Below, in pieces: positions 13,757 through 28,829 of a stretch of DNA of 64,000 nucleotides. A model generated the notes under the pieces. That model made no database searches. It saw only the letters and a list, made by a program, of their open reading frames with translations, and was not told where the DNA came from. The DNA comes from Clostridia bacterium (GTDB taxonomy: Bacteria > Bacillota > Clostridia > Christensenellales > Aristaeellaceae), in assembly GCA_017397895.1 (NCBI GenBank), contig JAFQHP010000049.1, positions 18,461 through 82,460 of the forward strand, in the 5' to 3' direction. The first letter of the stretch is position 1, and each line of letters opens with the position of its first letter. Position numbers and translations under genes: made by a program.

Positions 13757-13783
13757 GCCCGGCCTGAACGCCGGGCTTTTTTT
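13757..13783 (+). terminator. terminator after the sugar kinase
   Basis: GCCCGGC pairs with GCCGGGC across a six-base loop, followed by seven T. The T-run ends on the sigK stop codon of the opposite strand, so the two genes converge with no spare sequence. Confidence 0.9.
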
Positions 13784-13843
13784 CACCCCTGCACCCCCTG
13801 GCGCAACAATTCAATGGCCCGCTTCTCCATCCGGGATACATAG
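13783..13843 (-). CDS. sigK: sigK, 3' fragment (last codons, split by the element)
   Basis: Reading the minus strand from the shared 8-bp core gives Tyr-Val then SRMEKRAIELLRQGVQG and stop TGA. This is the second half of the region 4.2 recognition helix and the tail of a sporulation sigma factor. It has no start codon or ribosome site of its own. It is in frame with the 5' fragment at 28.2-28.8 kb when the two 8-bp core copies are merged, giving GISRSYVSRMEKRAIELL and a 225-residue protein. It can only be expressed after excision of the intervening DNA. Confidence 0.9.
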
Positions 13844-13866
13844 CACGGCAGCTACTGTAAACAATA
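13812..13866. other. left attachment junction of the sigK element
   Basis: Host sigK sequence (left) meets element sequence (right) at the core ATACATAG (13836-13843). The element arm that follows, CACGGCAGCTACTGTAAACA, is an imperfect inverted copy of the arm at the other end of the element. The predicted crossover is the central AC at 13838-13839. Confidence 0.88.
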
Positions 13867-13870
13867 CCCG

Positions 13871-15448
13871 TTAAGAAATTTCCGCCAACTCCCGAAAGCA
13901 GAATTTGATGATGATTTGCTTGTCTTCGGTCAGCTCGATCCGTTCAATCAGACTGACCAATAGCTCCCTACTGTTGCAGGCAGAAGCAAGATACTGCTGC
14001 ACCAATTCCCTTGCCCGGTCTTCTGTGGAGATCGGGCTTTCCTTTTGCGCTTCCAGCTGCTTCAGCTTTTCCTCCAAGGCCGTGCGATCCATTTTCACCC
14101 GCTTGTAGATGCGCTCAAAGTCGCTGTCGGACAGCATGCCGCTGAGCCGATCCATGTACATCTTATCCAGATGGACGGTGAGGTTCTCGATCTTGCCCTG
14201 CAGGGATTGCATCTCCGCTTCCGTGCTGTCGGCTTTCTGCGCTTCCTCCACTGCCTGGGCGGCAATGGGCTGCAGCCTGTCCGGTCGAAGAAAGGCCTGG
14301 CACACCTCCTGCACCTTGGCGATTACCGCTTCCGTCACCGTCCGCTCCTTGATGGAGTGGCAGGTACACACCCCCGCCTTGGTGAACCGCTGGTAGGTGC
14401 GGCAGACGAAGAACAGCCTTTCCTCTCCGGCGGTGTTGGGGCGGTTCAGCACCGCCATTGGGTAGCCGCACTCGTGGCAGTGGATCAGCCCCTTCAGCAG
14501 AAAATCGTAGGTGCGGCTTCGGGTGTGCTTGCGGCTGTTCACCAGCAGCTGCACCTTGCGGAAGGTTTCCTCATCAATCAGCGGCTCATGGGTGTTCTTC
14601 ACCACCACCCAGCTTTCCGGCGGCTGGGCGTGGCACTTCTTGGACTTGTAGCTGATCTTCACCGTGCGCCCCTGCACCATGTGGCCGATGTAGGTTTCGT
14701 TTTTCAGCATTTCGGTGATCCGCTCCGCCGACCACTGGCCGGAGTAAGCCCCCTTGGCACTGAGCGTCAGTCCGGCATAGGTGGCAGGTGTGGGGATGTG
14801 CTCCTCGTTCAGCCGCACCGCAATCTGTCGGCAGCTGATGCCCTCCAAGGCCATGGCGAAGATCCGCCGCACCACGGGAGCCACTTCTTCATCGATGACG
14901 ATCTTGTTTTTCTCCGTGGGGTGCATCTTGTAGCCGTACATGGGCTTGCCGCCGATGAACTGCCCCTTGCGCTGTTTGTCACGCTTCACGGACTTAATCT
15001 TTTTGGAGATGTCCTTGGCGTACATGTCGTTCATGATGGCACGGAAGGGGGTGATGTCGTTGGCGGTGGACTCCACGCCGGTGTCGATGCCGTCCAAGAG
15101 GGAGATGTACCGCACCCGCTTCTCGGGAAAATACCGCTCCATGTAGTGACCGGTCATGATGTAGTCGCGCCCCAGACGGGACAGGTCCTTGGTGATGACC
15201 ATGTTGACTTTCTTGGCTTCGATATCCCCGATCATCCGCTGGAAAGCCGGGCGGTCAAAGCTGGTGCCGCTGAAGCCGTCATCGATGTAGGTATCATACA
15301 CGGACAGCCGATGCTGCTGCACAAATTCATTCAGCAGGGATTGCTGGTTGGTCACGCTCTGGGATGGGCCTTCGGTTTCATCCTCCTTTGACAGACGAAT
15401 GTACAGGGCGACGTGATAATCCATGGGGTTGCTTATTTCAACGTACAT
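13871..15448 (-). CDS. large serine recombinase (element excisionase/integrase)
   Basis: 525 aa. The N-terminal resolvase domain has the catalytic Ser20 in YIRLSKED, then YIDDGFSGTSFDRPAFQRM and VITKDLSRLGRDYIMTGHY. The recombinase domain follows (GYKMHPTEKNKIVIDEEVAPVVRRIF), then a zinc ribbon (CHECGYPM to CTCHS) and a C-terminal coiled coil (about 395-475). It belongs to the TnpX/SpoIVCA-like group that moves integrative elements and excises skin elements. The start was set at the ATG with GAGGAGG five bases upstream; an alternative ATG at 15475 directly follows the stop of a small upstream ORF. Its position 28 bases inside the left attachment site fits a role in excising the element. Confidence 0.95.
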   Translation of the reverse strand: MYVEISNPMDYHVALYIRLSKEDETEGPSQSVTNQQSLLNEFVQQHRLSVYDTYIDDGFSGTSFDRPAFQRMIGDIEAKKVNMVITKDLSRLGRDYIMTGHYMERYFPEKRVRYISLLDGIDTGVESTANDITPFRAIMNDMYAKDISKKIKSVKRDKQRKGQFIGGKPMYGYKMHPTEKNKIVIDEEVAPVVRRIFAMALEGISCRQIAVRLNEEHIPTPATYAGLTLSAKGAYSGQWSAERITEMLKNETYIGHMVQGRTVKISYKSKKCHAQPPESWVVVKNTHEPLIDEETFRKVQLLVNSRKHTRSRTYDFLLKGLIHCHECGYPMAVLNRPNTAGEERLFFVCRTYQRFTKAGVCTCHSIKERTVTEAVIAKVQEVCQAFLRPDRLQPIAAQAVEEAQKADSTEAEMQSLQGKIENLTVHLDKMYMDRLSGMLSDSDFERIYKRVKMDRTALEEKLKQLEAQKESPISTEDRARELVQQYLASACNSRELLVSLIERIELTEDKQIIIKFCFRELAEIS

Positions 15449-15475
15449 CTTTTCCTCCTCGAAATAAGCGACCAT

Positions 15476-15622
15476 TCATCGCTCCCATGATACCGCAGGC
15501 TTCCCCGCCTGCGCAAGGATGCGGCTCAGATACAGCCGAAAAGATTCCTCCACCAGATGGGAGAGGCTCTTTTCGGCTTTTGTATATTCGCAGCGCACCA
15601 CCGGCGCTTCGCACTTTTTCAC
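15476..15622 (-). CDS. small protein encoded just before the recombinase
   Basis: 48 aa from a GTG with AGGAGG eight bases upstream. The product reads VKKCEAPVVRCEYTKAEKSL followed by SHLVEESFRLYLSRILAQ and a short tail. It is basic and predicted to be one or two helices. The stop TGA is followed directly by the alternative ATG of the recombinase, so the two are probably translated together. It may be a partner of the recombinase, for example a directionality factor, but that is a guess from position only. Confidence 0.6.
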   Translation of the reverse strand: MKKCEAPVVRCEYTKAEKSLSHLVEESFRLYLSRILAQAGKPAVSWER

Positions 15623-15955
15623 ACACCCCACCTCCTCTGCCTAACGTATGTCTGTGCATTTGCTTTTTTGCTTGTCCCCTTGATTCTCTCACCGCCTTTG
15701 TTATGCTGAACTTACGCAGTTATCCAGGAACACCGGAAAAGCCTCTCAAAAAAAGTCCCTCCACTATGTAGTCACAAAAAAACGCCGTTTGTAGTCCTTT
15801 TTTCAAAAAATAATTTTGCATTCAGCACATTTTTTCGATCTGACCATCAGTTTGTGATGAAGGACTGGTAAAATTCATCTGAACAATCAGAGGATTTTGC
15901 GGATTTCAAGGCGAAATACATGCATGCTGTGAAGTCGGAATATGGAGGGAATGAA
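15623..15955. other. 333-base gap between recombinase operon and small-ORF operon
   Basis: Apart from the candidate SigE-type promoter, no convincing gene is seen here. The right half (15770-15950) is AT-rich, contains runs of A and T, and should hold the promoter of the rightward small-ORF operon. No clear -35/-10 pair could be assigned. Confidence 0.5.
15698..15725 (-). promoter_or_regulatory. candidate SigE-type promoter for the recombinase operon
   Basis: On the minus strand GGATAAC lies 13 bases before CATAACAA, about 75 bases before the small ORF. CATAACAA resembles the SigE -10 consensus (CATACAAT-like), and the upstream ATA resembles its -35. Mother-cell expression would be expected of a sigK excisase. 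The match is partial. Confidence 0.35.
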
Positions 15956-16222
15956 ATGCTGCAGTTTGAAATGATAGAAAACAATATGGATTTCGTTTCA
16001 TATCGTTATTTCCCTGAAAATGATACTTTGTTTGGTACTATTTCTGTGAGAAAAGCAGACAAGACAATCATTGCTCAAACCATTGCTGAAAATGATGAAT
16101 TCAAATGTTTTTTTCCCATCTATACCAGCGCATCAAGGAATTCATTGATAAAGACTGCTTTGAAAAGCAAGGCACAATCATTTGGTATTGAACACCCGTT
16201 CCAGGAGGTTGTATTACGATGA
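15956..16222 (+). CDS. hypothetical protein, first of a four-gene small-ORF operon
   Basis: 88 aa from the ATG with GGAGGG six bases upstream. The product (MLQFEMIENNMDFVSYRYFP and on) has alternating strands in its first half and no signal peptide or membrane segment. I do not recognise the family. The DNA is AT-rich compared with the flanks. The stop overlaps the next start (ATGA), so it is co-translated with the following gene. Confidence 0.6.
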   Translation: MLQFEMIENNMDFVSYRYFPENDTLFGTISVRKADKTIIAQTIAENDEFKCFFPIYTSASRNSLIKTALKSKAQSFGIEHPFQEVVLR

Positions 16223-16626
16223 AATTCAAACTATGGGAGCATGTAAAAGTTAAGAAGAATGGTGTCATTGGTGAGATTATTGACATCAGTGAGAACATAT
16301 ATGGCAAAGTGTACATTGTTGAAAGCGATACAAAGGGTGAGCGTGATGATGCGGATTATCCTGGTGAGTGGCCTCTGTACGATTGCCAGGAAGATGAAAT
16401 AGAGAGAATAGAAATTGCTCTCAGCGTAAATACCATCAAATATATCATCTCCAGGGTTATCGACAACGCCAACGATGATGACCTACAGGATAGAAGCGAA
16501 TTCACTATGGGCAGAAGACTTGCCTATTATGAAATCCTGGACACAATCAAAAATGAACTGATTGTCCATGAACAGGATTTGAAAGAGTATGGTCTTGATT
16601 TTAACCTGGAAGATAGATTCCTGTAA
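16219..16626 (+). CDS. hypothetical protein with SH3-like start
   Basis: 135 aa. The first 60 residues (KFKLWEHVKVKKNGVIGEII, then DDADYPGEWPLYDCQEDEIE) are strand-rich and look like a small KOW/SH3-type barrel. The second half is helical and acidic. No named family is recognised. It overlaps the previous gene by four bases and belongs to the same AT-rich operon. Confidence 0.6.
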   Translation: MKFKLWEHVKVKKNGVIGEIIDISENIYGKVYIVESDTKGERDDADYPGEWPLYDCQEDEIERIEIALSVNTIKYIISRVIDNANDDDLQDRSEFTMGRRLAYYEILDTIKNELIVHEQDLKEYGLDFNLEDRFL

Positions 16627-16648
16627 ATGAAAGGGAAGCAATATTGGG

Positions 16649-16813
16649 ATGAAGATTAAGTACAAATTAGAATCGTGTGTTTCTTTGACAAACGGACAGA
16701 TTTATGAAGTGCTATCCGTTGAAGAAGGATGTTATCGCATCGTTGATGATACAGGCGAAGACTACCTCTTTATGCCTGAAGATTTCGAAATAGTGGAAGG
16801 GACAGAAAAATGA
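16649..16813 (+). CDS. small hypothetical protein, SH3-like
   Basis: 54 aa, with AAGGGAAG upstream of the ATG. The product MKIKYKLESCVSLTNGQIYE continues with VLSVEEGCYRIVDDTGEDYL and an acidic tail. The pattern 'x-Leu-Thr-Asn-Gly-Gln-x-Tyr-x-Val-Leu-Ser-Val-Glu' is typical of small SH3-barrel proteins in mobile elements. The stop overlaps the next start (ATGA). Confidence 0.6.
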   Translation: MKIKYKLESCVSLTNGQIYEVLSVEEGCYRIVDDTGEDYLFMPEDFEIVEGTEK

Positions 16814-17007
16814 TCTTCGTAAACGGTAGATATTTATTGGGTTTCTGGGATAATGAACTTGATAACTATGGCAGATTAACAGAGCCAATGCCCCCAGATA
16901 TGCCAGGATACGATTTCAAAGCAATGCGTAAGTATTGTGAAGAAAACGGGAAGCAGCTATCAGAACTTACTTACGAAGAAATTGAACAGTTCAGAAGCAC
17001 CGTGTGA
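16810..17007 (+). CDS. small hypothetical protein
   Basis: 65 aa. The second half is a helical, charged module (KAMRKYCEENGKQLSELTYE, then EIEQF). The first half is short strands with a Pro-rich turn (MPPDMPGYD). It is the last gene of the small-ORF operon, overlaps the previous ORF by four bases, and is followed by a bidirectional terminator. No function is recognised. Confidence 0.55.
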   Translation: MIFVNGRYLLGFWDNELDNYGRLTEPMPPDMPGYDFKAMRKYCEENGKQLSELTYEEIEQFRSTV

Positions 17008-17083
17008 AAACATGAAGCATCTGGGGTGTTTCCCATGTGGAAAAAACTGATACACCATGAAGTGAATGCTTTACTGTCAAATC

Positions 17084-17126: not shown

Positions 17127-18077
17127 TCAGAAGCCTGTTTTCCGGATAAATTCTGCCAGATTCCTGCCATACAGCTCCATGCCCAGGCAGTTGGGGTGCA
17201 GCTTATCCAGGAAATACTCCGGCAGGTGCGGCACCAGGGTGAAGCCATCCACCACCGTCACATTGGGATACTTCCCGGCGATCTTCTTCACGTTGTCGCA
17301 GAAGCGTTCCAGCACAGCCTCCTGCCCGGGGCAGTCGCCGCGCCACAGGGGGCTGATGCACAGCACCGGCGTGTCGCCGTACACCTTTTTCAGGCACTCG
17401 TAGTATTCCTCCACCGCGTCCATGGTTTCGCTGCCAAACTGATTGGTACCCATGGAGATAATGATCTTGTCCGGCTTGTAGCCTTCCATGGGCACCATGG
17501 TGTTCTTGTCGTACACATAGCCGCCGATGCCCTGGTTGAGGATATCGTAATTCAGGATGCGGTTGGCCACGCTCACATAGGTGTGGGAGGAGCGCAGCGG
17601 TCCATAGCCCTGGGTGATGGAATCGCCGATCCACAGCACCTTTTCGCCCTTCTTGGCCGGAGTGAAATCAGCGTTGATCTCAAAATCCTTCACCAGCAGA
17701 GTAGCGTCGGAGGGCAGGTAGATCACCACCTGCTTTTCCCCTTCGGGCAGGTCAAAGGAAAGGACGCCCTCCTGCCCCATGTCCTTCACATACTTGATAT
17801 CATAGGCCAGCCCGTCCACATACAACTCCACCGTGTCCTCGGAGCACTTCCAGTTGAACCTGTACGCAAAGGAGATCTTCGTGGCGGCGGTGGTCATTTC
17901 AAAGGTCTTGCAGTTGGAGGCGTCGCACCGCTCATACCAGAAGGTAAAGGGCGAATTGCGGAAATAGTCCATCTGGCTGTCGGTGTACTGGAACGCCTGC
18001 AGATATCCGTCCTCGGTTTCCTTAAAGTGCAGCGCACCGAAATAGATAGATTTCAGCTGTTCGTTGGTCAGAAGCAT
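17127..18077 (-). CDS. two-domain SGNH/GDSL hydrolase (carbohydrate esterase-like)
   Basis: 316 aa. The N-terminal 140 residues form a beta-rich domain. The SGNH domain follows: block I LWIGDSITQGYG with nucleophile Ser153, block II around GIGGYVYD, block III MGTNQFGS, and block V DKLHPN with Asp291 and His294. Such proteins de-esterify acetylated sugars. No signal peptide is present, so it acts inside the cell. It is the first of several sugar-related genes in the element and may work with the GH13 and GH92 enzymes on imported oligosaccharides. Confidence 0.85.
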   Translation of the reverse strand: MLLTNEQLKSIYFGALHFKETEDGYLQAFQYTDSQMDYFRNSPFTFWYERCDASNCKTFEMTTAATKISFAYRFNWKCSEDTVELYVDGLAYDIKYVKDMGQEGVLSFDLPEGEKQVVIYLPSDATLLVKDFEINADFTPAKKGEKVLWIGDSITQGYGPLRSSHTYVSVANRILNYDILNQGIGGYVYDKNTMVPMEGYKPDKIIISMGTNQFGSETMDAVEEYYECLKKVYGDTPVLCISPLWRGDCPGQEAVLERFCDNVKKIAGKYPNVTVVDGFTLVPHLPEYFLDKLHPNCLGMELYGRNLAEFIRKTGF

Positions 18078-18182: not shown

Positions 18183-19040
18183 TTATTGGTCTGAGCATCC
18201 TGCGATCCGCCTGTACTCCCCCGGCGTGCAGCTGACATACCCGCGAAACTGCCGGTTGAAGTTGGACAGATTGCGGAAGCCACATGCAAAGGCGATCTCC
18301 GCCACGCTCTTTGCCGTGTCTGTCAGCAGGTGGCAGGCCCGCCTGATCCGCAGCTGGTTGATGTATTCGATGGCACCCACGCCAGCGGCCTTTTTGAACT
18401 GCCCCATGAAGTAGCTCTTGCTCAGGTGGGTGATCTGTGCCAGCGTGTCAATGGAGATGCTTTCCGCCAGGTTGGCGTGAATGTATTCAATAGCCGGGCG
18501 GATCAACTCGCTGGCGGCTGTGCGGCTATCCGCCTGCGGGATGATGGCTCCCTGCGCTTCCATCAGCCACAGAAGGCGCAGCATTTCGCTTTTCAACAGC
18601 AGGTCGGCATGGGGCGTTCCGGCTCTGGCACCCATGAAGATGCGCTCCACAGTTTGCCGCATCGCATCATCCGCAGGGATGGGCATGGCGATGCGCCTTT
18701 CCCCGCTGACGAGGGGGCGGATGCATTCCACCGTGCTGCGGTCGTTGCAGGCGCTGCCCAGCAGCTCGCCGCTGAACACCAGCGTGTCATAGCGCTGCAT
18801 ATCGCCGCCGCTGGGGTAGATGGCATGGAGCATATTGGGCGGCAGGAGGATCACATCACCGGCATGGGTGATGAACCGCTCGTCGCCGCAGATAAACTCC
18901 GCGCTGCCGCTGATGACGTAGTTCAGCTCCAGCTCGCCATGCCAGTGCAGGGGGACGAACGGGAAATAGTCCGGGATGCTGCATTCGTAATAGGTGTAAG
19001 GCACCAGCACCGTGCTGTGCTGCCGTTTCTCTGCCAGCAT
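18183..19040 (-). CDS. AraC-family transcription regulator
   Basis: 285 aa from the ATG with GAGGTG four bases upstream; a longer in-frame reading to about 20.5 kb would run antisense to the GH13 gene and is rejected. The N-terminal cupin has HWHGELELNYVISG and GDVILLPPNMLHAI. The C-terminal double helix-turn-helix has SIDTLAQITHLSKSYFMGQF and the signature SVAEIAFACGFRNLSNFNRQ. It is divergent from the GH13 gene and likely controls it and the nearby hydrolases. Confidence 0.9.
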   Translation of the reverse strand: MLAEKRQHSTVLVPYTYYECSIPDYFPFVPLHWHGELELNYVISGSAEFICGDERFITHAGDVILLPPNMLHAIYPSGGDMQRYDTLVFSGELLGSACNDRSTVECIRPLVSGERRIAMPIPADDAMRQTVERIFMGARAGTPHADLLLKSEMLRLLWLMEAQGAIIPQADSRTAASELIRPAIEYIHANLAESISIDTLAQITHLSKSYFMGQFKKAAGVGAIEYINQLRIRRACHLLTDTAKSVAEIAFACGFRNLSNFNRQFRGYVSCTPGEYRRIAGCSDQ

Positions 19041-19112
19041 ATCGCACCTCAAAAAGTAGTATCGTATCAGAATACAGGAGAATATCAGGAGAAACCCTCG
19101 GTTCTGTATCGT

Positions 19113-19141: not shown

Positions 19142-19172
19142 GCCTGCAAAAGAAGTGTAAAGGAGCATGACC

Positions 19173-20723
19173 ATGGAAGCAAACCAGCCCCAGTGGCTCG
19201 ACAACGCGATCTTCTACGAGATCTACCCCCAGTCCTTCAACGACACCAACGCCGACGGTATTGGCGATTTTCAGGGCATCATCGAAAAGCTGGATTACAT
19301 CCGCGAACTTGGCTGCAATGCGCTGTGGATCAACCCCTGCTTCAAGTCTCCCTTTGGCGATGCGGGCTACGACGTGGCAGATTTCTACTCCGTTGCGCCC
19401 CGCTACGGCACCAACGAGGATCTGAAGCGGCTGTTTGCCGAAGCACATCAACGGCATATGCACGTTCTGCTGGATCTGGTTCCCGGCCACACCTCCGTGG
19501 AGCACCCCTGGTTCAAGGAATCCATGAAGGCGGAGCGCAACGACTACACCGACCGCTATGTGTGGACGGATTCCGTTTGGGAGGAACCCCAGGGCATGGG
19601 CTGCATCCGCGGCATTTCCCAGCGGGATGGCTCCTGCGCCATCAACTTCTTCTCCAACCAGCCCGCGCTGAATTACGGCTTTCTGAATCCCACGCTGCCC
19701 TGGCAGCAACCCATGGACGCCCCCGGCCCCCGGGCCACGCTGGAGGAACTCAAAAACATCATGCGCTTCTGGCTCTCCATGGGCTGCGATGGCTTCCGGG
19801 TGGACATGGCGGGTTCGCTGGTCAAGCACGACCCCGACAGCCGCGGCACCATCCGGCTGTGGCAGGAGATCCGCGCCTTCCTGGACGAGGAATTCCCCGC
19901 AGCGGCCATGGTGTCCGAGTGGGGCGAGCCGGACAAGTCCCTGCAGGGCGGCTTCCACATGGACTTCCTGCTGCACTTCGGCCCCTCCCATTACAACGAT
20001 CTGTTCCGCTGCGCCGAACCCTTCTTCTCCCAGCGGGGCAAGGGCGATGTGTCCGCTTTCGTGCAGAAATATCTGGAGAATTACGAGAAGTCCCAGCGCA
20101 AGGGGCTGATCTGCATTCCCTCCGGCAACCACGACATGGACCGCCTCTCCCGCTCCATCCAGGGCGATAGCCTCAAAATTGCCTTTGCCTTCCTGCTGTC
20201 CATGCCCGGCGCGCCCTTCATCTACTATGGCGATGAGATCGGTATGCGCTACATTGAGAACATCCCCTCGGTGGAAGGCGGCTACAACCGCACCGGCTCC
20301 CGCTCGCCCATGCAGTGGGACAGCACAGTGAATGCGGGCTTCTCCGCCGCGCCTAAGGAGAAGCTGTACATCCGGCAGGACGAGAGCGCAGACCGCCCCA
20401 CCGCCGCTGCCCAGATGGCGGACGAAAACTCCCTGTACCATGAGATCAGGCGGCTGATCGCCGTCCGGCAGGCCCACACGGCGCTACAGAGCAAGGGCAA
20501 AATCGAGTTTGTTTATGCGGAAAAGGACGCCTATCCGCTGGCCTATCTGCGTAGCAGCGATGATGAGAGGATCCTTGTGGTAATCAACCCTGCAGATCGT
20601 GAGGTCAGCTTCGGCTGTACGCATGTGCCGAAGGAAAACCTCTACCGTTTTGGCGAGGAAATCGCCTGCAAGGATGGCATCATGACCGTTCCTGCGCAGA
20701 CGGTGGGCTGGTTCAGAGTATAG
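19173..20723 (+). CDS. GH13 alpha-amylase-family glycoside hydrolase
   Basis: 516 aa. The ATG at 19173 has AAGGAG seven bases upstream; the ATG six bases earlier is too close to it. The TIM-barrel motifs are present: region I DLVPGHTS (Gly-His in place of the usual Asn-His), region II GFRVD with nucleophile Asp211, region III SEWGEP with acid/base Glu249, and region IV GNHD at 318-321. The C-terminal beta domain is present. No signal peptide is seen, so it acts on imported oligosaccharides, like oligo-1,6-glucosidases. Its substrate is not certain. It is divergent from the AraC regulator. Confidence 0.88.
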   Translation: MEANQPQWLDNAIFYEIYPQSFNDTNADGIGDFQGIIEKLDYIRELGCNALWINPCFKSPFGDAGYDVADFYSVAPRYGTNEDLKRLFAEAHQRHMHVLLDLVPGHTSVEHPWFKESMKAERNDYTDRYVWTDSVWEEPQGMGCIRGISQRDGSCAINFFSNQPALNYGFLNPTLPWQQPMDAPGPRATLEELKNIMRFWLSMGCDGFRVDMAGSLVKHDPDSRGTIRLWQEIRAFLDEEFPAAAMVSEWGEPDKSLQGGFHMDFLLHFGPSHYNDLFRCAEPFFSQRGKGDVSAFVQKYLENYEKSQRKGLICIPSGNHDMDRLSRSIQGDSLKIAFAFLLSMPGAPFIYYGDEIGMRYIENIPSVEGGYNRTGSRSPMQWDSTVNAGFSAAPKEKLYIRQDESADRPTAAAQMADENSLYHEIRRLIAVRQAHTALQSKGKIEFVYAEKDAYPLAYLRSSDDERILVVINPADREVSFGCTHVPKENLYRFGEEIACKDGIMTVPAQTVGWFRV

Positions 20724-21138: not shown

Positions 21139-23322
21139 TCATTTTCCCTTGGTGTAGTCCGCAGGTTCCGCGCCCATGTCAAACTCGAATACCGCACCGT
21201 CACGGATCATCTCATGGGTGAACATGGTGCTTTGCCACTCCTGCCCGTTGATGCGCACGGCCTGGATGTACTTATTCTCCGTGGACAGGTTGTTGGCACG
21301 GATGACGATCTCCTTGCCGCTGGGCATCTGGATAACCGTTTCATCGTACCGGGGGCTGGTAAGGTAGTACAGATTCTGCCCCGCATTGGGGAAGAAACCC
21401 ACGGAGGAGAAGATGTACCAGCTGCTCATGGCGCCGGAGTCATCGTTGCCGGGAGGGCCGTCCATGGTGAACAGATCCCGCAGTTTGTCGATGCTGTCGG
21501 TGATGAGCCAGGGCTTTTTCGTGTACGCAAAGAGGTACGAAGCCAGGAACGCCGGCTCGTTGCCGTAGTCCACAAGGCCGGTTTCGATGCCGTGCGTAAG
21601 ACGGCGGATGAACGCATCCTCGCCGCCGCATTTCTCGATCAGCGTGGGTACATCGTGGGGCACGAAGAAGGAATAGTTGTAAGAGGTAGCCTCATAGAAA
21701 TGCTTCACCCAGCTGCCCCAGTGCTGGCCGGGGTCGATCTCCACCCAGGTGCCATCGGAATTACGGGGGCAAATGAAGCCGGTGAACTCCTTGTACTTTG
21801 CATCGGGATTCCACAGGTTCTGCCAGTTGCGGCTGCGCTGGGTGTAGGCTTCGTAATCCGCTTTGCTTCCTAAGTTCTTCGCCATGGTGGCGGCGCAATG
21901 GTCGTTGTAGGATTGCTCCAGCGTGTAGGAGCAGGCCATCTGGCCGTACTCCGTACCGGGGATGGCATGGTCATCGGGGATGTAGCCCAAGCGATAGTAC
22001 GGCCCGTTGGGATCCGCCACCGGTGGCGCATAGCTGTACCAGCCGATGCGGTAGTTGTCCGCGTGGTTCTTCACCACCTGATAGGCCTTGTCCCAGTTGA
22101 TACCGGGAACGCCCTTCACATAAGCGTCGCAGACGATGTTGTCCACATCATCGCCGCCCTGCTCAGGGTTCATGTCCACACCGGCAACAAAGGTATCCCG
22201 CACATAGTCCGTCCTGGCATGGCGGGCAATAAAGCTGTTCACGGTCTTGGTCACCATGTCCGGCTTGATCAGCGTGTACAGGGGGTAGAGGGTGCGCCAG
22301 GTATCCCAGATGGCGTAGTGATCGTCGATCATGGGCACGTTGTCACCGTAGCCGGGGATATCGCCGCTGCGGTCACGGGGCATGCACATGGCGTGGTAGA
22401 TGGCGGTGTAGTGCTTCATCTTGTCCACGTCGGTCACGTGCTCGCCGTTGATCTGGATCTTCTGCAATTCCTTGTTCCACAGAGCCTTGGTTTCTTCACG
22501 GATGGCCTCGTAATCCCAATCGGGGATCTCCTTTTCCAGCCACATCTTTGCCTTTTCCATGCTGGTGAAGGACACACCGATCTTCACATGCACGTCTTCG
22601 TTTTCAGCAGTTTCAAAGCGCATAAAGCCGCCCACGCTCTCGTCTTTGGAGCGCAGGGTGTCCTTGAAAAAGCCGGTTTCGCCTTCGTGCAAGCCATTCG
22701 CATCATAGGTACCCATGACGGCAGGCTGCTTCTTGACCACGGCATAGAAATGCAGACCATGCGCTCCACCGAAGCCACCCTCGTACACACCGGAGCCGCT
22801 GAACACGGGATAGCCTTCGGCGTTAATCTCTGTATGCAGCACCACCTTGGAAGCGGAAATGCCGCTTTCGGTGTTCACGATGTTGGCCAGCAGCGGCACG
22901 CTGTGGGCCAGGTCGATGAGCAGGCTGGCATCCCTGGACGCAGGATAAGTGAACCGGTAGATGGAGGCATGTTCCGCCGGCGTCACAGCGCAGCGGATGC
23001 CGTAACGCTTCAGCAGCACGCTGTATTCACAGCAGGATGTGCACTCGTCCTCCGCCGCAGAGTCGTGTCCGGTGAAGCTTGTGTTCAGCCCGATCTGGGG
23101 CGACAGCAGGAACTGGCCGTACTTGCCGTAGCCCGTACCGCTGGCATGGATCTGGGAAAAGCCTCGGATGTCGTTCCCGGTAAAGTAGCCGGAATGCTGG
23201 CCGCCCTTGGTATCGGGGGCAGGGTTCGCCGACGCATTGGGCCGCTGGGGGCCGATGACGGTGTTGCCTTCATTGTCCACGCCGTAGCGCAGATTCACAT
23301 AGCGGGTCAGATCCGTCAACAT
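21139..23322 (-). CDS. GH92 exo-alpha-mannosidase
   Basis: 727 aa, typical GH92 length. GH92 enzymes are calcium-dependent, inverting exo-alpha-mannosidases acting on N-glycans and yeast mannan. Family motifs are GVDMNPEQGGDDVDN near residue 375 and GNDDSGAMSSWYIFSSVGFF near residue 632. The N-terminal beta-sandwich begins directly with LTDLTRYVNLRYGVDN, with no signal peptide, so the enzyme is intracellular. A ribosome site GGAG and a near-consensus promoter lie upstream. It is part of the sugar cargo of the sigK element. Confidence 0.92.
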   Translation of the reverse strand: MLTDLTRYVNLRYGVDNEGNTVIGPQRPNASANPAPDTKGGQHSGYFTGNDIRGFSQIHASGTGYGKYGQFLLSPQIGLNTSFTGHDSAAEDECTSCCEYSVLLKRYGIRCAVTPAEHASIYRFTYPASRDASLLIDLAHSVPLLANIVNTESGISASKVVLHTEINAEGYPVFSGSGVYEGGFGGAHGLHFYAVVKKQPAVMGTYDANGLHEGETGFFKDTLRSKDESVGGFMRFETAENEDVHVKIGVSFTSMEKAKMWLEKEIPDWDYEAIREETKALWNKELQKIQINGEHVTDVDKMKHYTAIYHAMCMPRDRSGDIPGYGDNVPMIDDHYAIWDTWRTLYPLYTLIKPDMVTKTVNSFIARHARTDYVRDTFVAGVDMNPEQGGDDVDNIVCDAYVKGVPGINWDKAYQVVKNHADNYRIGWYSYAPPVADPNGPYYRLGYIPDDHAIPGTEYGQMACSYTLEQSYNDHCAATMAKNLGSKADYEAYTQRSRNWQNLWNPDAKYKEFTGFICPRNSDGTWVEIDPGQHWGSWVKHFYEATSYNYSFFVPHDVPTLIEKCGGEDAFIRRLTHGIETGLVDYGNEPAFLASYLFAYTKKPWLITDSIDKLRDLFTMDGPPGNDDSGAMSSWYIFSSVGFFPNAGQNLYYLTSPRYDETVIQMPSGKEIVIRANNLSTENKYIQAVRINGQEWQSTMFTHEMIRDGAVFEFDMGAEPADYTKGK

Positions 23323-23496: not shown

Positions 23497-23662
23497 CGTG
23501 AGGGAGTAGCGAGCGCCTCTGGCGTAGCAAGTCAACATCCTGGCTCCGGCCTGGCTTGCTTCAAATTGCGAGACTCATCGTACAGCTGAAAGGCTATGCG
23601 TGGGTCGAAGTATGATCGTTTCATCACCCGGGCATGGCATTCAGCGCCGTGCCCGGGTTTTT
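23497..23662 (+). ncRNA. yybP-ykoY (manganese) riboswitch with terminator platform
   Basis: The aptamer shows the class pattern. P1 is GTGAG/CTCAT (23498-23502 with 23574-23578). The conserved loop is GGAGTAGC (23503-23510). A GTCAACAT segment is followed by a stem ending in CTGGC, and the second conserved loop is GCGAGA (23568-23573). The expression platform is a 12-bp stem, CCCGGGCATGGC with GCCGTGCCCGGG, followed by TTTTTG (to 23662). In this class Mn2+ binding normally favours read-through. It precedes an SRPBCC-like/ATC-hydrolase-like/membrane-protein operon, not the usual MntP, TerC-like or P-type ATPase gene. The class call is from memory of conserved bases. Confidence 0.78.
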
Positions 23663-23694
23663 GTTATCCTCAAACGACCGTGAAAGGAGATCAA

Positions 23695-24150
23695 ATGAAA
23701 CATCGGCTTGTCGTACGATCCGTCACACTCCCTGCAAACGTCAACACCATTTGGCCGAAGCTCTCCATGCTCAGCACATTGCAGCATATTGCCAGGCCCT
23801 ATGCCACCTTCCAGCCAGTTGACCGCTCCGACGATCTCAAATGGCAGCCGGGTGAAGTATACCGGTTCCGCTTCCGACTTTTCGGGGTGCTGCCCCTGGG
23901 CATCCACACCATCCGTGTGATGCGCTTTGACCAAGCCGCTGGCATCATCTACACAGAAGAATCCAATCCCCATGTGCCGGTGTGGAATCACAAAATCATC
24001 CTGACGGCCATCGATCATGACAGCACAGGATATACGGACGAAGTGGAGATCCACGCAGGCTGGAAAACGCCTTTCGTGTGCCTGTGGGCCAAGCTGTTTT
24101 ACGCCCACCGGCAAAGAAAATGGATCCGTCTGCTCCATGAACACAAATAA
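23695..24150 (+). CDS. SRPBCC-like small protein
   Basis: 151 aa from the ATG with AAAGGAGA five bases upstream; the upstream in-frame stretch is riboswitch sequence. The layout of one early helix, a string of strands (YRFRFRLFGVLPLGIHTIRV, GIIYTEESNPHVPVWNHKII) and a C-terminal helix suggests a START/SRPBCC-type ligand-binding fold. No catalytic residues are recognised. It is the first gene of the riboswitch-controlled operon. Confidence 0.6.
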   Translation: MKHRLVVRSVTLPANVNTIWPKLSMLSTLQHIARPYATFQPVDRSDDLKWQPGEVYRFRFRLFGVLPLGIHTIRVMRFDQAAGIIYTEESNPHVPVWNHKIILTAIDHDSTGYTDEVEIHAGWKTPFVCLWAKLFYAHRQRKWIRLLHEHK

Positions 24151-24165: not shown

Positions 24166-24786
24166 ATGAAAACCGTCACCCCCGAAGCCTGTAAAAAGAT
24201 CATCCGCCGCAAGCCCATCACGAAAAGTCTGTACAATGGTTTTGTGGCCAACGGTTGGGAAGCCCACCTGCCTGCCGTGTATGACCGTGCCGCTTCCCTG
24301 TTTGCGGACAATGCCTCTGCCAGCCCTGCTCTGCAAATGCACCTGAACCAGCTGCTGCCCATGATCGCCCTGTATGAAAAGGCGGTGGAGATCACCGGAA
24401 GCGTGGAAGGGGCTTTGGCCTTCACGGAAAAATGGGCGTTCATCGAAACGGAAAAGAAGATGAAGTTCGCCCGGGGCCTGATGAAGCTGGGGCTTTACAA
24501 ACTGATGCCCTCCCTGTGCGGCAAAATGCTGGACAGGATGTTTGGCGAAGCAGCCGGTTTCAAATATCGCCTTGTGCCGGATGCCCCGAAATTCGCAGTG
24601 GATATGCTGCACTGCCCCTACTTTGAAACCTGCAAGAAGTACGGCTGTCCGGAGCTGACCCAGTTTTCCTGCCGTGCCGATGATATCACCTACGGCAACC
24701 TGCACAAAAATCTCGTCTGGGCCCGCACCCAGACCCTGGTCACCGGCGGCAGCTGCTGCGATTTCCGGCTGCACCTGAAAAAATGA
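24166..24786 (+). CDS. L-2-amino-thiazoline-4-carboxylate hydrolase-like protein (element copy)
   Basis: 206 aa. The cysteine-rich C-terminal half has the family pattern: CPYFETCKKYGCPEL, SCRADDITYG, then WARTQTLVTGGSCCDFRLH. The named enzyme of this family opens the L-ATC ring in bacterial cysteine formation; most clostridial members have unknown roles. A close paralog (about 70% identical by eye) lies outside the element at 29.9-30.6 kb, also followed by a membrane protein of the same type. The stop overlaps an upstream ATG of the next gene. Confidence 0.75.
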   Translation: MKTVTPEACKKIIRRKPITKSLYNGFVANGWEAHLPAVYDRAASLFADNASASPALQMHLNQLLPMIALYEKAVEITGSVEGALAFTEKWAFIETEKKMKFARGLMKLGLYKLMPSLCGKMLDRMFGEAAGFKYRLVPDAPKFAVDMLHCPYFETCKKYGCPELTQFSCRADDITYGNLHKNLVWARTQTLVTGGSCCDFRLHLKK

Positions 24787-24800
24787 TTGGAGGAGTACCC

Positions 24801-25493
24801 ATGGACACGAAAGCATACGCCAACATACGAAAACTGCTGATCATCGGCCTGATCGCCTCCATCGTTACGGTGCTTGGCGGCGAGCTGACCATCGGTTGGG
24901 TGGAATACCCCAGGGTGGAGAATGACCTCACCGGCATGATGGGCATGATGCTGGGCAGCGCCAACCTGTCGCTGTGGCAGCTGGCCTGCGGCGTGCTCTT
25001 TGGCGGTATCGGTATTCCGCTGCAGTATTACGGCTTCAAGGCCACCGCGCAGCTGGTGGAAAAGGGTGGCAGCAAAAGGGCTGCGAAGCTCATCCATGTG
25101 GGCGCTGCGGCTACCGCAGGGCTGGGCGGCATCGTTCATGTGATCTGCATTGCTCTGATGTTCCTGTGCCGCATGGTGGATTTCTCCGCGGGTGGCATCC
25201 CCCAGCCGCTGTGGGACTTCACCCTCTGGCTGGTGCTGCCCATCTGCGTGGCATTTATGCCCATGTACTACACCATGACCATCGCCCTGTTCGTGACGGT
25301 TGTTCGCGGCAAAACCTGCCTGCCCCGCTGGGCTGCGGTGTTCAATCCGCTGACGGGCACGCTGGTGATCAACGCCCTGCCCATGCTCCTGCCGGCCTCC
25401 GCGCTGGTCAACGCCCTGGGTATGGCTAACATGGGCATTGGGTCAGTGCTGACCTTCGCAGGCATCCTGACTGTGATGAAAAAAGCTAAATAA
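24801..25493 (+). CDS. multi-spanning membrane protein, DUF6796-like (element copy)
   Basis: 230 aa from the ATG preceded by GGAGGAG. Six or so membrane segments are visible, including LLIIGLIASIVTVLGGELTI near the start and FTLWLVLPICVAFMPMYYTM in the middle. It resembles the gene at 30.6-31.2 kb in length, topology and the segments 'Lys-Thr-Cys-Leu-Pro-x-Trp-Ala' and 'His-x-x-Cys'. I place it with DUF6796-type proteins with limited confidence. Control by a Mn riboswitch suggests a link to metal stress or metal transport. Confidence 0.6.
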   Translation: MDTKAYANIRKLLIIGLIASIVTVLGGELTIGWVEYPRVENDLTGMMGMMLGSANLSLWQLACGVLFGGIGIPLQYYGFKATAQLVEKGGSKRAAKLIHVGAAATAGLGGIVHVICIALMFLCRMVDFSAGGIPQPLWDFTLWLVLPICVAFMPMYYTMTIALFVTVVRGKTCLPRWAAVFNPLTGTLVINALPMLLPASALVNALGMANMGIGSVLTFAGILTVMKKAK

Positions 25494-25554: not shown

Positions 25555-25571
25555 GATTCGATACGATTAGA

Positions 25572-25898
25572 TTATTCTTTCTTTGATGGTAGCAACATGG
25601 TCTCTTTCGGCATCTCGTAGATGTTGTACTCCACATAGGATCTGCCGTTTGCGCCGGTTTTGCGGATGCGTTCCAGATAGCCCATGCTCTCCAGCTCCCG
25701 CATGGTGCTGCGGATGGCGTCGGGACCATCCGGCATGATCTTACTGAGCCCTGCCACGGAGAACCGCCAGTTGGGCGGCAAGTCCATCAGGACGGCCATG
25801 AGGCCCTTGGCTCTCAGGGACAGTTCCTTGTTGCGGGTGGAGTGGTTGCTCATGCTCACGAAGGATTTCCGAGGGTTGTTGCTGCGATAGACAGGCAT
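25572..25898 (-). CDS. RepA-N-type winged-helix protein
   Basis: 108 aa. The sequence FVSMSNHSTRNKELSLRAKG then LMAVLMDLPPNWRFSVAGLS with a following IRSTMRELESMGYLER matches the N-terminal DNA-binding domain of plasmid and integrative-element replication initiators. It lacks the C-terminal part of a full initiator, so it may be a regulator or a trimmed replication protein. It follows parB by 17 bases and is transcribed with it. Confidence 0.75.
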   Translation of the reverse strand: MPVYRSNNPRKSFVSMSNHSTRNKELSLRAKGLMAVLMDLPPNWRFSVAGLSKIMPDGPDAIRSTMRELESMGYLERIRKTGANGRSYVEYNIYEMPKETMLLPSKKE

Positions 25899-25915
25899 CG
25901 TGATGATCCTTTCAA

Positions 25916-26839
25916 TTATCGTTCTTGTTGCTGTTGACGCTTACGCTGCCAGGTATCCAGTAGCCGGAAGATGACGGTTTCCATCTGCTGGGGCGTATAG
26001 GACTTGGGGAAATACTTGCGCAGGGCTTCGGCGGAGAAAGATACCTGCTCCTGCTCCACCTTCTTCTCTTCGGACAGAATGGCACTCATCACTGCCGGGG
26101 ACAGCTTGTCCTCCTGACTGAACCGCTTCATCCGCTGCGCCTGGGACAAGGACGGCGTAGCCTGTTCGCTTTCCATGGCATCCAGCAGCTGGGCTTGTTC
26201 CTCCTGCTTCAGGTAGGACAGCTCCACCGCCGGATTGAATGCGATTTTCTTTTCGTCCACCATGGTCAGTAATTGGGGAATCAGGTGGGTCAGGCGGATG
26301 TAGCGATGCACTTGATTTCTGCTTTCGCCTGATTCCTGTCCGACAATATCAAGTGCCTGTAACTTCATCCCAACTTGGGATGAAGTCAGGTCAGACCTTT
26401 TCCCTTGTCGTCTCAACGCCTCCAACTTCATCTTATAGGCAAAAGCCCTCTCACTGGGCAGGATGTTCTCCCGCTGGATGTTGCTATCCACCATCACCAG
26501 TACGGCGGCATTATCGTCCATTTCTCGAACGATCACCGGCATGGTGTCGAAGCCTGCCAGTTCACAGGCTCTCTTGCGACGGTGACCGGAGATCAACTCA
26601 TAGCCGCCATCAGGACGGGGACGAGCAATAGCCGGCACCAGCACGCCACGTTCCTGAATGCTGCAAGTGGTGTCCGCCATCCGGTCATCGTCCATCACTT
26701 TGAAGGGATGATCCTTGAAGGGGTGGAGTTCAGAAAGCGGAATGTCCATCACCTTTTCCCGGTGATAGTCCTGCCGCTGTTCTTCGGTGGAAAAAAGATC
26801 TTCGTAGGGTGTCAGTTGAATGTGTGTCCGTCTTTTCAT
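25916..26839 (-). CDS. ParB/Spo0J-family partition-like protein
   Basis: 307 aa. The ParB N-terminal nuclease-like domain has IPLSELHPFKDHPFKV, MADTTCSIQERGVLVPAI and the signature GYELISGHRRKRACEL. A central helix-turn-helix (NQVHRYIRLTHLIPQLL) and a basic C-terminus follow. No parA is adjacent, and the closest relatives of this type sit in integrative elements, where they regulate or stabilise the element. An AGGAG ribosome site precedes the ATG. It is divergent from fic. Confidence 0.88.
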   Translation of the reverse strand: MKRRTHIQLTPYEDLFSTEEQRQDYHREKVMDIPLSELHPFKDHPFKVMDDDRMADTTCSIQERGVLVPAIARPRPDGGYELISGHRRKRACELAGFDTMPVIVREMDDNAAVLVMVDSNIQRENILPSERAFAYKMKLEALRRQGKRSDLTSSQVGMKLQALDIVGQESGESRNQVHRYIRLTHLIPQLLTMVDEKKIAFNPAVELSYLKQEEQAQLLDAMESEQATPSLSQAQRMKRFSQEDKLSPAVMSAILSEEKKVEQEQVSFSAEALRKYFPKSYTPQQMETVIFRLLDTWQRKRQQQQER

Positions 26840-26918
26840 ATTTTTCTCCTTTTTTTATCGTATCGTTTGACTGTGTTATGTTGTTGGGAGAACCAAATGC
26901 CCTTTATTTGCATACTTT

Positions 26919-26998
26919 CCCTTGTTTCTGGCATAATTTTAAGGGATTCATTCCCTTTTTCATTGACTTTTCCCTTATATTTGCCTATAATTTAAGGG
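26919..26998. repeat. duplicated operator-like inverted repeats before fic
   Basis: Two 27-bp units, each CCCTT...(17)...AAGGG, lie 53 bases apart (26919-26945 and 26972-26998). The second encloses the -10 box of the fic promoter. Their inner sequences are also alike (TTTCTGGCATAATTT and ATTTGCCTATAATTT). They look like tandem binding sites for one regulator. Confidence 0.6.
26963..26991 (+). promoter_or_regulatory. promoter of the fic gene
   Basis: TTGACT, 17 bases, TATAAT, with the -10 box inside an AAGGG/CCCTT inverted repeat. The transcript would start about 25 bases before the TTG start codon. Confidence 0.8.
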
Positions 26999-27019
26999 TA
27001 AGTGAAAGGAGGTAAGAAT

Positions 27020-28066
27020 TTGAGAGCGTTCAACTATTCCGCAATCAGGGATCAGAAGTGGGATTCCGACATCCTTGGCTTGATTGCTGCCATATACAAA
27101 GAAGCCGGCAAGCAGGAGCTGTACCTGAAGCAGCGTCCGGAGGAGCTGGAGAAGCTGGTGGAGATCGCCAAGGTGCAAAGCACCGAAGCATCCAACGCCA
27201 TTGAGGGCATTGTCACCACCAGCACCAGAATCCGGCAGCTGGTTTCGGAAAAGACCGCTCCGCGGAACCGTGATGAACAGGAGATCGCTGGGTATCGTGA
27301 TGCCTTGAACATCATTCACGAGAACTTCGATGCCATTCCCATCACGCCGAATTACATCCTGCAGCTGCACAAGGTGATGTACAGCCACATGAACAATCCC
27401 ATGGCGGGCCGCACAAAGAGCGTCCAGAACTACATCAGCGCCACTTATCCTGACGGTCATGTGGAAACGCTGTTCACGCCTCTTTCGCCTTTTGAGACGC
27501 CGGATGCCCTCGGCAGGATCTGCGAGGAATACAACCGCATCATTGGCAACATGGAGGTTGAACCGCTGATTGCCATTCCGGTTTTCATCCACGACTTCCT
27601 GTGCATCCATCCCTTCAACGATGGCAACGGCAGAATGAGCCGCCTGCTGACGACACTGCTGCTGTACCGCAGCGGCTTCTATGTGGGCAAGTACATCTCT
27701 CTGGAAGCGAAGATCGCCAAGAACAAGGATCTGTACTACGACGCTCTCCGTCAGGCACAGACCGGCTGGCATGAGGAAGCGGAAGATGCAGTTCCTTTCA
27801 TCAAGTACCTGCTGGGCACCATCCTTGCTGCCTACAAGGATTTTGCGGATCGTTTCGCCTTGGTTGAAACGAAGATGCCAGCGATTGAGATGGTCCGGCA
27901 GGCATCCATGAACAAGCTGGGACGATTCACCAAGCAGGATATCCGGGAGCTTTGTCCCTCCTTAAGCGTCAGTGCCATTGAAGGCGCACTGCGGAAGCTG
28001 GTTGCCGACGAAGAAATCAAACGTGAAGGAAGCGGCAAGAACACCTGCTACTTCCGGCTCAGATGA
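27020..28066 (+). CDS. Fic-domain protein (AMP-transferase type) with C-terminal winged helix
   Basis: 348 aa from a TTG with AAAGGAGG eight bases upstream; a GTG 18 bases earlier would put the ribosome site inside the gene. The Fic motif HPFNDGNGRMSR (197-208) is complete. An inhibitory helix SNAIEG (58-63) precedes it, the class II arrangement in which the Glu blocks ATP. The N-terminal Fic_N-type segment and a C-terminal winged helix complete the common Fic architecture. Such proteins AMPylate target proteins, and some regulate their own gene. It is the last gene before the right end of the element. Confidence 0.92.
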   Translation: MRAFNYSAIRDQKWDSDILGLIAAIYKEAGKQELYLKQRPEELEKLVEIAKVQSTEASNAIEGIVTTSTRIRQLVSEKTAPRNRDEQEIAGYRDALNIIHENFDAIPITPNYILQLHKVMYSHMNNPMAGRTKSVQNYISATYPDGHVETLFTPLSPFETPDALGRICEEYNRIIGNMEVEPLIAIPVFIHDFLCIHPFNDGNGRMSRLLTTLLLYRSGFYVGKYISLEAKIAKNKDLYYDALRQAQTGWHEEAEDAVPFIKYLLGTILAAYKDFADRFALVETKMPAIEMVRQASMNKLGRFTKQDIRELCPSLSVSAIEGALRKLVADEEIKREGSGKNTCYFRLR

Positions 28067-28149
28067 GTGCACTTCTGTGCATTTTGCACAGAGGTTGTCC
28101 AAGGCGCAAACGCCTGATGAATGGCCGCGATTTGCCTTGAAAAACACCA

Positions 28150-28182
28150 ATGCCCGAAGGCTTTTTGCTTGCCTTCGGGCAT
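28150..28182. other. stem-loop beside the right attachment site
   Basis: ATGCCCGAAGGC pairs exactly with GCCTTCGGGCAT across a nine-base T-rich loop. No T-run follows the stem, so it is a weak terminator for fic at best. It ends where the right inverted arm of the attachment site begins. Confidence 0.6.
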
Positions 28183-28235
28183 CGTTTACAATAGGGACGG
28201 TGCTATACATAGGACCGGGAAATGCCAAGCAATCT
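28181..28235. other. right attachment junction of the sigK element
   Basis: The element arm ATCGTTTACAATAGGGACGG leads into the core ATACATAG (28205-28212), after which host sigK sequence begins. The arm is an imperfect inverted copy of the left arm (20 of 26 positions match). The predicted crossover is the AC at 28207-28208. Confidence 0.88.
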
Positions 28236-28829
28236 GGCCACCTCATGCTGGGGGTGCATGCGGCCGTCCAGCAGGCCGTAGCGCATTTCGATCACCAATT
28301 TTTCCCGTTTGGGCAGGTCACGGATGAGCAGGCGCACCCTTTCCATGCTCAGCCGGTGCACCACCTTTTCCTCCAGCTCATCCTCCGGCGTGCCCAGGAT
28401 ATCCATGAAGGAAAGGTCGTTCCCTTCGCCGTCGGTGCCGATGGGATCGGAGAGGGAAACGTCGTTTCGGTACTTTTTGGAGGAGCGCAGCAGCATCAGA
28501 ATTTCGTTTTCAATGCACCGGGCCGCATAGCTGCCCAGCTGGGCGCCGGTTTCGGGGCGAAAAGTATTCACTGCCTTGGTCAGCCCCAGTGCACCTACGG
28601 ATACCAGGTCCTCCCGGGTGTAGCCGGGCACGGTGTATTTGCCTGCAATGTGGGATACCAGCCGCAGGTTGTGGGTGATGAGGGTCTGGCGGGCCTCTTC
28701 ATCCCCCTGCTGCATGCGTTCTATCTGGATTTTTTCCTCCTCCCGGGTGAGGGGCTTGGGAAAGCCGCCGGACAGGCTGCCAAAGAAAAACAGCGCATCC
28801 CGAAACAGCCACAAAAGAAACGAAAACAT
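28203..28829 (-). CDS. sigK: sigK, 5' fragment (208 codons, interrupted before the C-terminus)
   Basis: The start ATG has a strong AAAGGAGG site. The product begins with a hydrophobic pro-sequence (MFSFLLWLFRDALFFFG) as in B. subtilis pro-SigK, then FPKPLTREEE. Region 2 has LITHNLRLVSHIAGKY and CIENEILMLLRSSKK, and the SigK-type DVSLSDPIGTDGEGND follows near residue 133. Region 4 runs to EVARLLGISRSYV and meets an element-encoded TAG. The recognition helix is cut, so the fragment should be inactive. Excision adds 17 residues. SigK drives late mother-cell genes for coat and cortex. SigE was considered, but the pro-sequence and the residue 130-150 segment fit SigK better. Confidence 0.92.
   Translation of the reverse strand: MFSFLLWLFRDALFFFGSLSGGFPKPLTREEEKIQIERMQQGDEEARQTLITHNLRLVSHIAGKYTVPGYTREDLVSVGALGLTKAVNTFRPETGAQLGSYAARCIENEILMLLRSSKKYRNDVSLSDPIGTDGEGNDLSFMDILGTPEDELEEKVVHRLSMERVRLLIRDLPKREKLVIEMRYGLLDGRMHPQHEVARLLGISRSYV

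Follow-up and report, generated by a model that had tools for sequence, protein, structure and literature searches.

The 64,000-nucleotide stretch analysed here (the window), from a Clostridia bacterium of the Aristaeellaceae (contig JAFQHP010000049.1, positions 18,461 to 82,460), carries on its minus strand a sigK gene in two parts, separated by an element of 14,369 bp that encodes a large serine recombinase near one of its ends. The features that define the split gene and the element ends are as follows.

28203..28829, minus strand: sigK 5' part, 208 codons followed by an element-encoded TAG; matches the NCBIfam SigK family
13783..13842, minus strand: sigK 3' tail, YVSRMEKRAIELLRQGVQG-stop, with homologous tails in relatives; its Tyr codon is shared via the repeat
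13836..13843: attachment-site (att) core ATACATAG, recombinase end; exchange GT (minus strand) at 13839-13838
28205..28212: att core ATACATAG, sigK 5' end; exchange GT (minus strand) at 28208-28207
13840..13869, minus strand: att arm A (GTTTACA..GTGCTAT), an inverted-repeat match to arm B
28177..28206, minus strand: att arm B (ATAGCAC..TTGTAAAC), an inverted-repeat match to arm A
13871..15475, minus strand: large serine recombinase, 534 amino acids (aa), with Resolvase, Recombinase and zinc ribbon domains; 80 relatives

The 5' reading frame starts at 28829 (an alternative, longer in-frame start lies at 28919), has a hydrophobic N-terminal stretch that by eye resembles a pro-sequence, and ends on the minus strand in GISRSYV and the TAG at 28203. 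Within the region-4 helix, the cut falls at the Tyr-Val codons; joining the two parts at their common GT gives an open SigK frame of 225 aa. The joined gene scores higher than the cut piece against the SigK model TIGR02846 (270.3 vs 250.9 bits) and passes the PRK05803 SigK cut-off of 252 (266.0), which the cut piece fails (246.4). Neither reaches the cut-off of TIGR02846 itself (298.65), and the same is true of 52 of the 60 genomes scanned, this one included. In relatives, the uninterrupted sigK reads through the cut site with identical or very similar residues (seven plus eight genes displayed). The initial annotation of this DNA had described a SigK-like gene cut after codon 208 by an element-encoded stop, the missing tail with its own stop 14.4 kb away (here at 13842-13783, minus strand), the same repeat at both cuts, exact restoration of the frame upon merging, and a serine recombinase just inside one end. 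All of this holds, the recombinase stop lying 27 bases inside the repeat (13871 vs 13843).

Could such an arrangement arise by chance? There are exactly two copies of ATACATAG in the window (13836 and 28205), one per cut and 14,369 bp apart. Since 0.23 repeats are expected and at least two copies appear in 3 of 100 shuffles, the repeat by itself is weak evidence; given its position, the frame and the homology, the split arrangement is evidently not a product of chance. When arms A and B are aligned on the GT they form inverted repeats that match at 23 of 30 positions, a level that none of 100,000 random pairs of 30-mers from the element attained (best 19). Among relatives, the bases to the left of the GT change with the element while those to the right follow sigK (judged by eye), which argues for exchange at the GT of the Val codon rather than across the whole 8-mer. 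A short core with inverted arms at both ends, and a complete recombinase frame of its own near one of them, are features of skin-type elements.

It is thus highly probable that a skin-type element splits sigK in this organism and that its predicted excision in sporulation restores the gene. The parts of this reading taken from the sequence are the cut, the inverted arms round the GT, the complete recombinase, the exact frame, the single sigK found in the genome and the recurrence in many Clostridia.

The host genome and its genus

The window genome (2.34 Mb in 66 contigs, 96.9% complete) holds the sporulation genes for SpoIVA (621 bits, well above cut-off), a SpoIIID-like protein and SigE. A SigK search of this genome found no intact SigK: besides the split gene, its matches were one SigE-like gene and weaker sigma factors. 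Among 29 genomes of the genus, this one included, 17 have an uninterrupted sigK. These uninterrupted copies in related genomes, which the initial annotation had proposed to look for, favor the skin-like arrangement that it had suggested; so do the sporulation genes and the failure to find a second intact copy in this genome, which it had named as part of a refutation.

The window's type of element is found in five of the 29 genomes: G000, G003 and G021, with the 5' junction, and G008 and G016, with the recombinase and tail. Four genomes have sigK split at the Ile-Glu-Asn-Glu codons, with an AATGA core: G003, G013 and G024 (both junctions) and G027 (assigned by model positions on two contigs). 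G003 belongs to both groups, and eight of the 29 genomes show evidence of a sigK element at one of the two sites; another four (G009, G011, G019, G025) are incomplete or without a SigK-level match. The recombinases at the AATGA-type site (G003, G013, G024) are 22-24% identical to that of the window.

Loci L040, L041 and L045-L047 of genus relatives are independent elements at this B. subtilis-type sigK site, and in the three checked (L040, L041, L043) the recombinase adjoins the sigK 3' part. One genome has a second sigK-like gene with an internal TAA (G018:C10:22363-23004) and an intact sigK on another contig.

A recombinase family that abuts sigK

How widespread is this arrangement? Named genome contigs were searched with the window recombinase, and 80 of 491 candidates, 71-98% identical, were examined; four of these are on genus genome contigs (L054, L056, L060, L066). 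The loci were classed by the sequence that follows the recombinase. In 65, the direct class, there is an in-frame SigK-like tail with a stop, which can be translated as SigK only after joining. In nine, the inverted class, the sigK 5' end follows on the other strand (L074, L079-L081, L089, L095, L103, L104, L127). Six are other. (A stricter tail pattern gave 69 of 106 loci, a set made up of the 80 named and the genus loci, many of the latter with distant recombinases; it was later relaxed and the inverted class added.) The recombinase thus abuts sigK at the window's codon in 74 of the 80 loci. In the inverted loci, the element is turned round: the recombinase end abuts the sigK 5' part, which puts the gene at the opposite end of the element, although the exchange GT is not symmetric.

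Of the six others, one (L071, taken up below) is unexplained. For L064, L126 and L129, the genome contains a sigK 5' part that ends at the window's codon; junction DNA was displayed for L064 and L129, the right end being indistinct in the latter. In the genomes of L099 and L120, an intact sigK accompanies a contig in which the element arms are joined round the core (attP form), with junctions at position 15941 of L214 and 9335 of L224; the junction on L120's own contig is incomplete. The two halves of L214 match the two ends of the element integrated in Flavonifractor An82; the right half also matches that of Pseudoflavonifractor An827.

An even draw over the class, comprising 391 genomes (own included) with at most three candidates scored per genome, yielded a close recombinase in three of the 390 others, all at this sigK codon, which indicates a family that few genomes carry but that keeps to its target. 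Two of these carriers are loci L087 and L104 and one is new. Carriers include the isolates Blautia wexlerae MSK.20.46, whose element of about 6.6 kb lies on one contig, Butyricicoccus pullicaecorum ET57, Flavonifractor An82, Pseudoflavonifractor capillosus An827, Oscillibacter ER4, O. valericigenes An907 and Flintibacter muris DSM 110149. In the metagenome-assembled genome (MAG) SIG357, the recombinase is 95% identical to that of the window, SigK 62% and SigE 76%; in Blautia wexlerae, the corresponding figures are 83%, 45% and 63%. In the two genomes compared the recombinase is thus far more alike than SigK or SigE, which indicates that the elements move between species. Judged from these comparisons, this is a distinct, mobile, sigK-specific recombinase family, skin-like in its apparent working, and the window element, which the initial annotation had seen as a single case, is evidently one of a large, horizontally spread family.

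Carriage of the recombinase by phages or plasmids was considered and set aside: it matches 836 phage and 575 plasmid records, none of which reaches 60% identity. Of nine loci from viral_contigs, L229 and L230 include a sigK tail; L228 breaks off within the core, and L227, L231 and L232 do so at the recombinase or inside it; L233-L235 are distant. The SIG357 MAG, which is also the genome of L055, has a second sigK piece (G068:C7:11938-12291; model positions 100-212, then TAG) besides the copy at the minimal element described below, perhaps another interrupted sigK.

sigK in three pieces

Some genomes have both sigK sites occupied. In G003, two elements with different recombinases lie on a single 91-kb contig (G003:C61:34900-77800; L043/L050, L238-L240): one of 25 kb occupies the AATGA-type site, the other, of 16 kb, the site used in the window. 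Joined, the three sigK pieces encode a SigK of 228 aa. Contig C50 of this genome repeats the first sigK piece. Profile search and tail show both sites cut in Oscillibacter ER4, O. valericigenes An907 (junction DNA displayed) and the genome of L083, and a three-piece sigK with its first cut near codon 66 in Flavonifractor An82; apart from An82, the pieces in these genomes lie partly on different contigs. In An82 (L216, L244; G062:C1), a 17-kb element sits near codon 66 and the window-site cut is about 103 kb from the tail, a gap that is either a very large element or a rearrangement.

A small upstream gene and a predicted sporulation-type promoter

Between the recombinase and the cargo lie two further features, the second of which has a counterpart upstream of sigK.

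15476..15622, minus strand: 48-aa open reading frame (ORF), predicted recombination directionality factor (RDF); abuts the recombinase start, with counterparts in relatives
15647..15677, minus strand: predicted promoter footprint GGACAAGC-N19-CATA, a SpoIIID-like box and a sigma-E/K-type -10
28856..28886, minus strand: similar predicted promoter GGACTGGC-N19-CATA, upstream of sigK

When the sequence just before the recombinase was screened by position, length and ribosome-binding site, a small ORF of 37-48 aa was found in 65 of 71 loci (the window plus the 70 of 80 with enough upstream sequence); 30 shuffles of the complete set of 71 gave a mean of 2.2 and a maximum of 6. A homology search (tblastn, E 1e-3, with four members as queries) places it upstream of the recombinase in 66 of the 80. 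Identity to the window copy ranges from 15 to 73% in 20 aligned members, and changes fall mostly at third codon positions (43, 46, 78 and 10, 13, 29 for positions 1, 2 and 3 in two groups of four). Scans of three members against Pfam and three against PHROGs matched no family, and tblastn at E 0.1 did not find the ORF in 34 loci of more distant recombinases. It is conserved and placed like Skr of the B. subtilis skin, and is therefore a predicted directionality factor. The ORF may be a relative of TnpW, but the profile match is weak (hhalign probability 35, 24 columns). At L139-L142 and L205, TndX-type recombinases of the genus and of Blautia follow another small ORF, which has a TnpW-like pattern. 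Small upstream ORFs may perhaps act as directionality factors in this whole group, though here again the profile match is weak.

The SpoIIID box has the consensus WWRRACARNY, and CATA is the sigma-E/K-type -10. About 170-225 bp upstream of the recombinase, amid poorly alignable sequence, is a conserved island in which the strict pattern GGACA[AG]GC-N17-22-CATA, composed after viewing the alignment, occurs in 28 of the 71 loci; 100 shuffles of the full set never produced it. (A looser SpoIIID/CATA search, which the strict pattern superseded, was less specific, with 56 of 71 against a shuffle mean of 21.4 and maximum of 30.) By eye, a CATA also lies a short way upstream of sigK, both in the window and in the 18 relatives displayed. 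The island is a predicted SpoIIID box with a sigma-E/K-type -10. In B. subtilis, the sigK 5' part and the recombinase gene are both sigma-E genes activated by SpoIIID (PMC517825), and similar footprints before sigK and recombinase would amount to that known circuit.

Cargo and element size

The remainder of the element is cargo.

15920-16222, 16219-16626, 16649-16813 and 16810-17007, plus strand: four small ORFs without a Pfam family
17127-18077, minus strand: GDSL hydrolase
18183-19070, minus strand: AraC regulator
19167-20723, plus strand: GH13 alpha-amylase family
20726-21070, plus strand: HxlR regulator
21139-23322, minus strand: GH92
23596-24150, plus strand: protein with no family
24166-24786, plus strand: ATC hydrolase family
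24783-25493, plus strand: DUF6796
25572-25898, minus strand: short HTH_36 protein, like the N-terminus of replication initiators
25916-26839, minus strand: ParB-like protein
27002-28066, plus strand: Fic-domain protein

The HTH_36 and ParB-like pair (25572..26839) is, from its families, apparently a plasmid-like remnant. Pfam found no phage structural or packaging genes and no relaxase or conjugation families among the 15 cargo proteins, and PHROGs gave ParB-like, replication-initiator-like or unknown-function matches for the five proteins searched. A prophage is rejected on these scans (15 proteins by Pfam, five of them by PHROGs), and so is a conjugative or mobilizable transposon of the TndX/TnpX type, from the lack of a relaxase or conjugation family in the Pfam scan. 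When the 15 ORFs were searched in loci L054-L163, the only matches outside their own locus were for ParB (one locus), AraC (three) and Fic (seven); the cargo is thus replaceable. ATC-hydrolase family genes lie both inside the element (24166-24786) and just outside it (29926-30558), and the inner one is possibly a capture of the neighboring host gene.

How small can such an element be? In L055, the smallest, the recombinase stop lies 2,345 bp from the sigK 5' end, with the tail 34 bases further, and this minimal element of about 2.4 kb contains the recombinase, the small ORF and an ORF of 114 aa. Across the 11 loci with a same-strand upstream sigK 5' end, the spacing between that end and the recombinase stop ranges from 2.3 to 9.8 kb; these loci reach only 10 kb, so that longer elements, like the window's own at 14.4 kb, are missed.

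Relation to known sigK elements

By its published description, skinCd of Clostridioides difficile (recombinase CD1231, RDF CD1234) resembles the window element in its 14-kb scale, its interruption of sigK, its single large serine recombinase directly upstream of the sigK 3' part, its inverted att arms and an RDF under sigma-E and SpoIIID control, the last being only predicted in the window (PMC5025042). It differs in that CD1231 is constitutive, the 72-aa RDF is a separate gene and C. difficile sigK lacks a pro-sequence (PMC5025042). The skin of B. subtilis (SpoIVCA, Skr) is alike in having a SigK pro-sequence, a small RDF ORF at the recombinase start (Skr, 64 aa) and a sigma-E and SpoIIID promoter more than 200 bp upstream, which in the window is again a prediction (PMC6957869, PMC517825). 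On the other hand, it is a 48-kb prophage-like element at an AATGA site, whereas the window element is 14.4 kb long with unrelated cargo, and Skr overlaps spoIVCA by 101 nt where the window ORFs abut. The window element does not use the AATGA site (Ile-Glu-Asn-Glu codons) but its own, at Tyr-Val near the sigK 3' end. The suggestion in the initial annotation of an independent sigK element is borne out by this difference from the B. subtilis AATGA site (PMC10745906) and by the low identity of the AATGA-site recombinases noted above.

Convergence of unrelated elements on sigK is also described for the B. cereus group (PMC10745906) and for Alicyclobacillus phage MMB025 (PMC13141910), with excision demonstrated for some; these have other cores, cargos and, where stated, positions, and their hosts are Bacilli. 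Clostridial sigK is likewise interrupted in C. tetani, some C. botulinum and one C. perfringens strain, by what are described as prophages (PMC5025042). The gin element in gerE has non-phage cargo, a serine recombinase and an RDF, and is excised in sporulation, as is predicted for the window; it differs in its target and in having three recombinases (PMC5595907). The TndX-type recombinases of conjugative transposons are serine recombinases about 35% identical to the window's, and no sigK tail was seen at the distant genus recombinase loci scanned. A description of this recombinase family, of a three-piece sigK or of sigK elements in these genera was not found in the literature seen, in which subscription journals are largely uncovered.

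A possible mechanism and its rivals

We infer the timing of excision, the role of the directionality factor, the formation of a circle and its reinsertion as follows. Vegetative cells would make a truncated, inactive SigK that lacks the end of the region-4 helix. Upon sporulation, sigma-E and SpoIIID would switch on both sigK and the recombinase operon, as the resemblance between their upstream footprints suggests. Produced together with the recombinase, the 48-aa protein would act as directionality factor and allow attL x attR recombination, whereupon the element would depart as a circle (attP), leaving sigK restored. Its loss would not be inherited, since the mother cell dies and the forespore chromosome keeps the element. 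The recombinase could on its own put the circle back into an uninterrupted sigK (attB), and this would account for horizontal spread to a single codon of a single gene.

Several points weigh against this account. The window's own assembly contains no exact attP junction and no joined sigK. The role proposed for the small ORF is predicted from its position and conservation. The exact footprint is absent from 43 of the 71 loci, and the 28 loci that have it are mutually related, so that shuffles overstate their independence. The host SpoIIID-like protein scores 84 bits, below the curated cut-off of 111.5; no sigK 5' part was seen for G008 and G016; L214 lacks a terminal overlap and may not be a circle; and the attP-bearing genomes could hold an element that never integrated.

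Some of these points would also fit an ordinary mobile element or prophage remnant that uses sigK as an attachment site, with any excision unlinked to sporulation and with a dispensable sigK or a non-sporulating host. The plasmid-like and metabolic, not sporulation-related, cargo and the many loci without the exact footprint would be expected of such an element, as would L071, a MAG labelled Spirochaetales that carries a close recombinase without any sigK match. This explanation is nevertheless unlikely: in-frame SigK-like tails in 65 of 80 loci suggest that the joined gene is in use, the host retains SpoIVA, the SpoIIID-like protein and SigE, and the footprint and RDF-like ORF are positioned as in the B. 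subtilis skin (PMC6957869). (The recombinase of L071 has an intact arm and another flank, and the contig may be foreign, a new target or a free element.) A stranded element, in which recombination is dead in the window genome and sigK is a broken gene, would account for an assembly with neither the joined form nor attP, yet it is quite improbable, since the recombinase frame, arms, core, footprint, 5' part and tail are all complete and recombinase copies 95-98% identical occur in other genomes. An assembly artefact, conceivable for a genome in 66 contigs, is ruled out for practical purposes by the same kind of junction in independent assemblies, including isolates with contigs of 188 kb and 656 kb.

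Implications for sporulation in the Clostridia

The skin element has been called an exception in clostridia (PMC5025042, PMC3789829), and a paper of 2013 described it as missing from all other clostridial species except for one asporogenous strain of C. tetani (PMC3789829). This contrasts with the 74 of 80 loci of one recombinase clade that abut sigK, in dozens of Clostridia, cultured strains included. sigK would accordingly look broken in genomes and MAGs whose owners may sporulate. Beyond the skin-type reading of this one locus, it seems likely, if less firmly so, that sigK of gut Clostridia is a landing pad for transmissible, sporulation-gated, self-excising elements ("DNA introns"). These would enter at one codon by means of a specialised serine recombinase clade, with a new family of tiny directionality factors, a host-like mother-cell promoter, a size down to 2.4 kb and arbitrary cargo, and would stack with other such elements, leaving some sigK genes in three pieces that need two different recombinases in each sporulating cell. 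The compact recombinase and its 48-aa partner could serve as a small gene-switching tool.

Are these elements regulatory devices of the host, or parasites of a gene needed only in a dying cell? This is an old question, which their recurrence makes testable. The spread over hosts with dissimilar SigK, together with the stacked elements, favors the parasite view.

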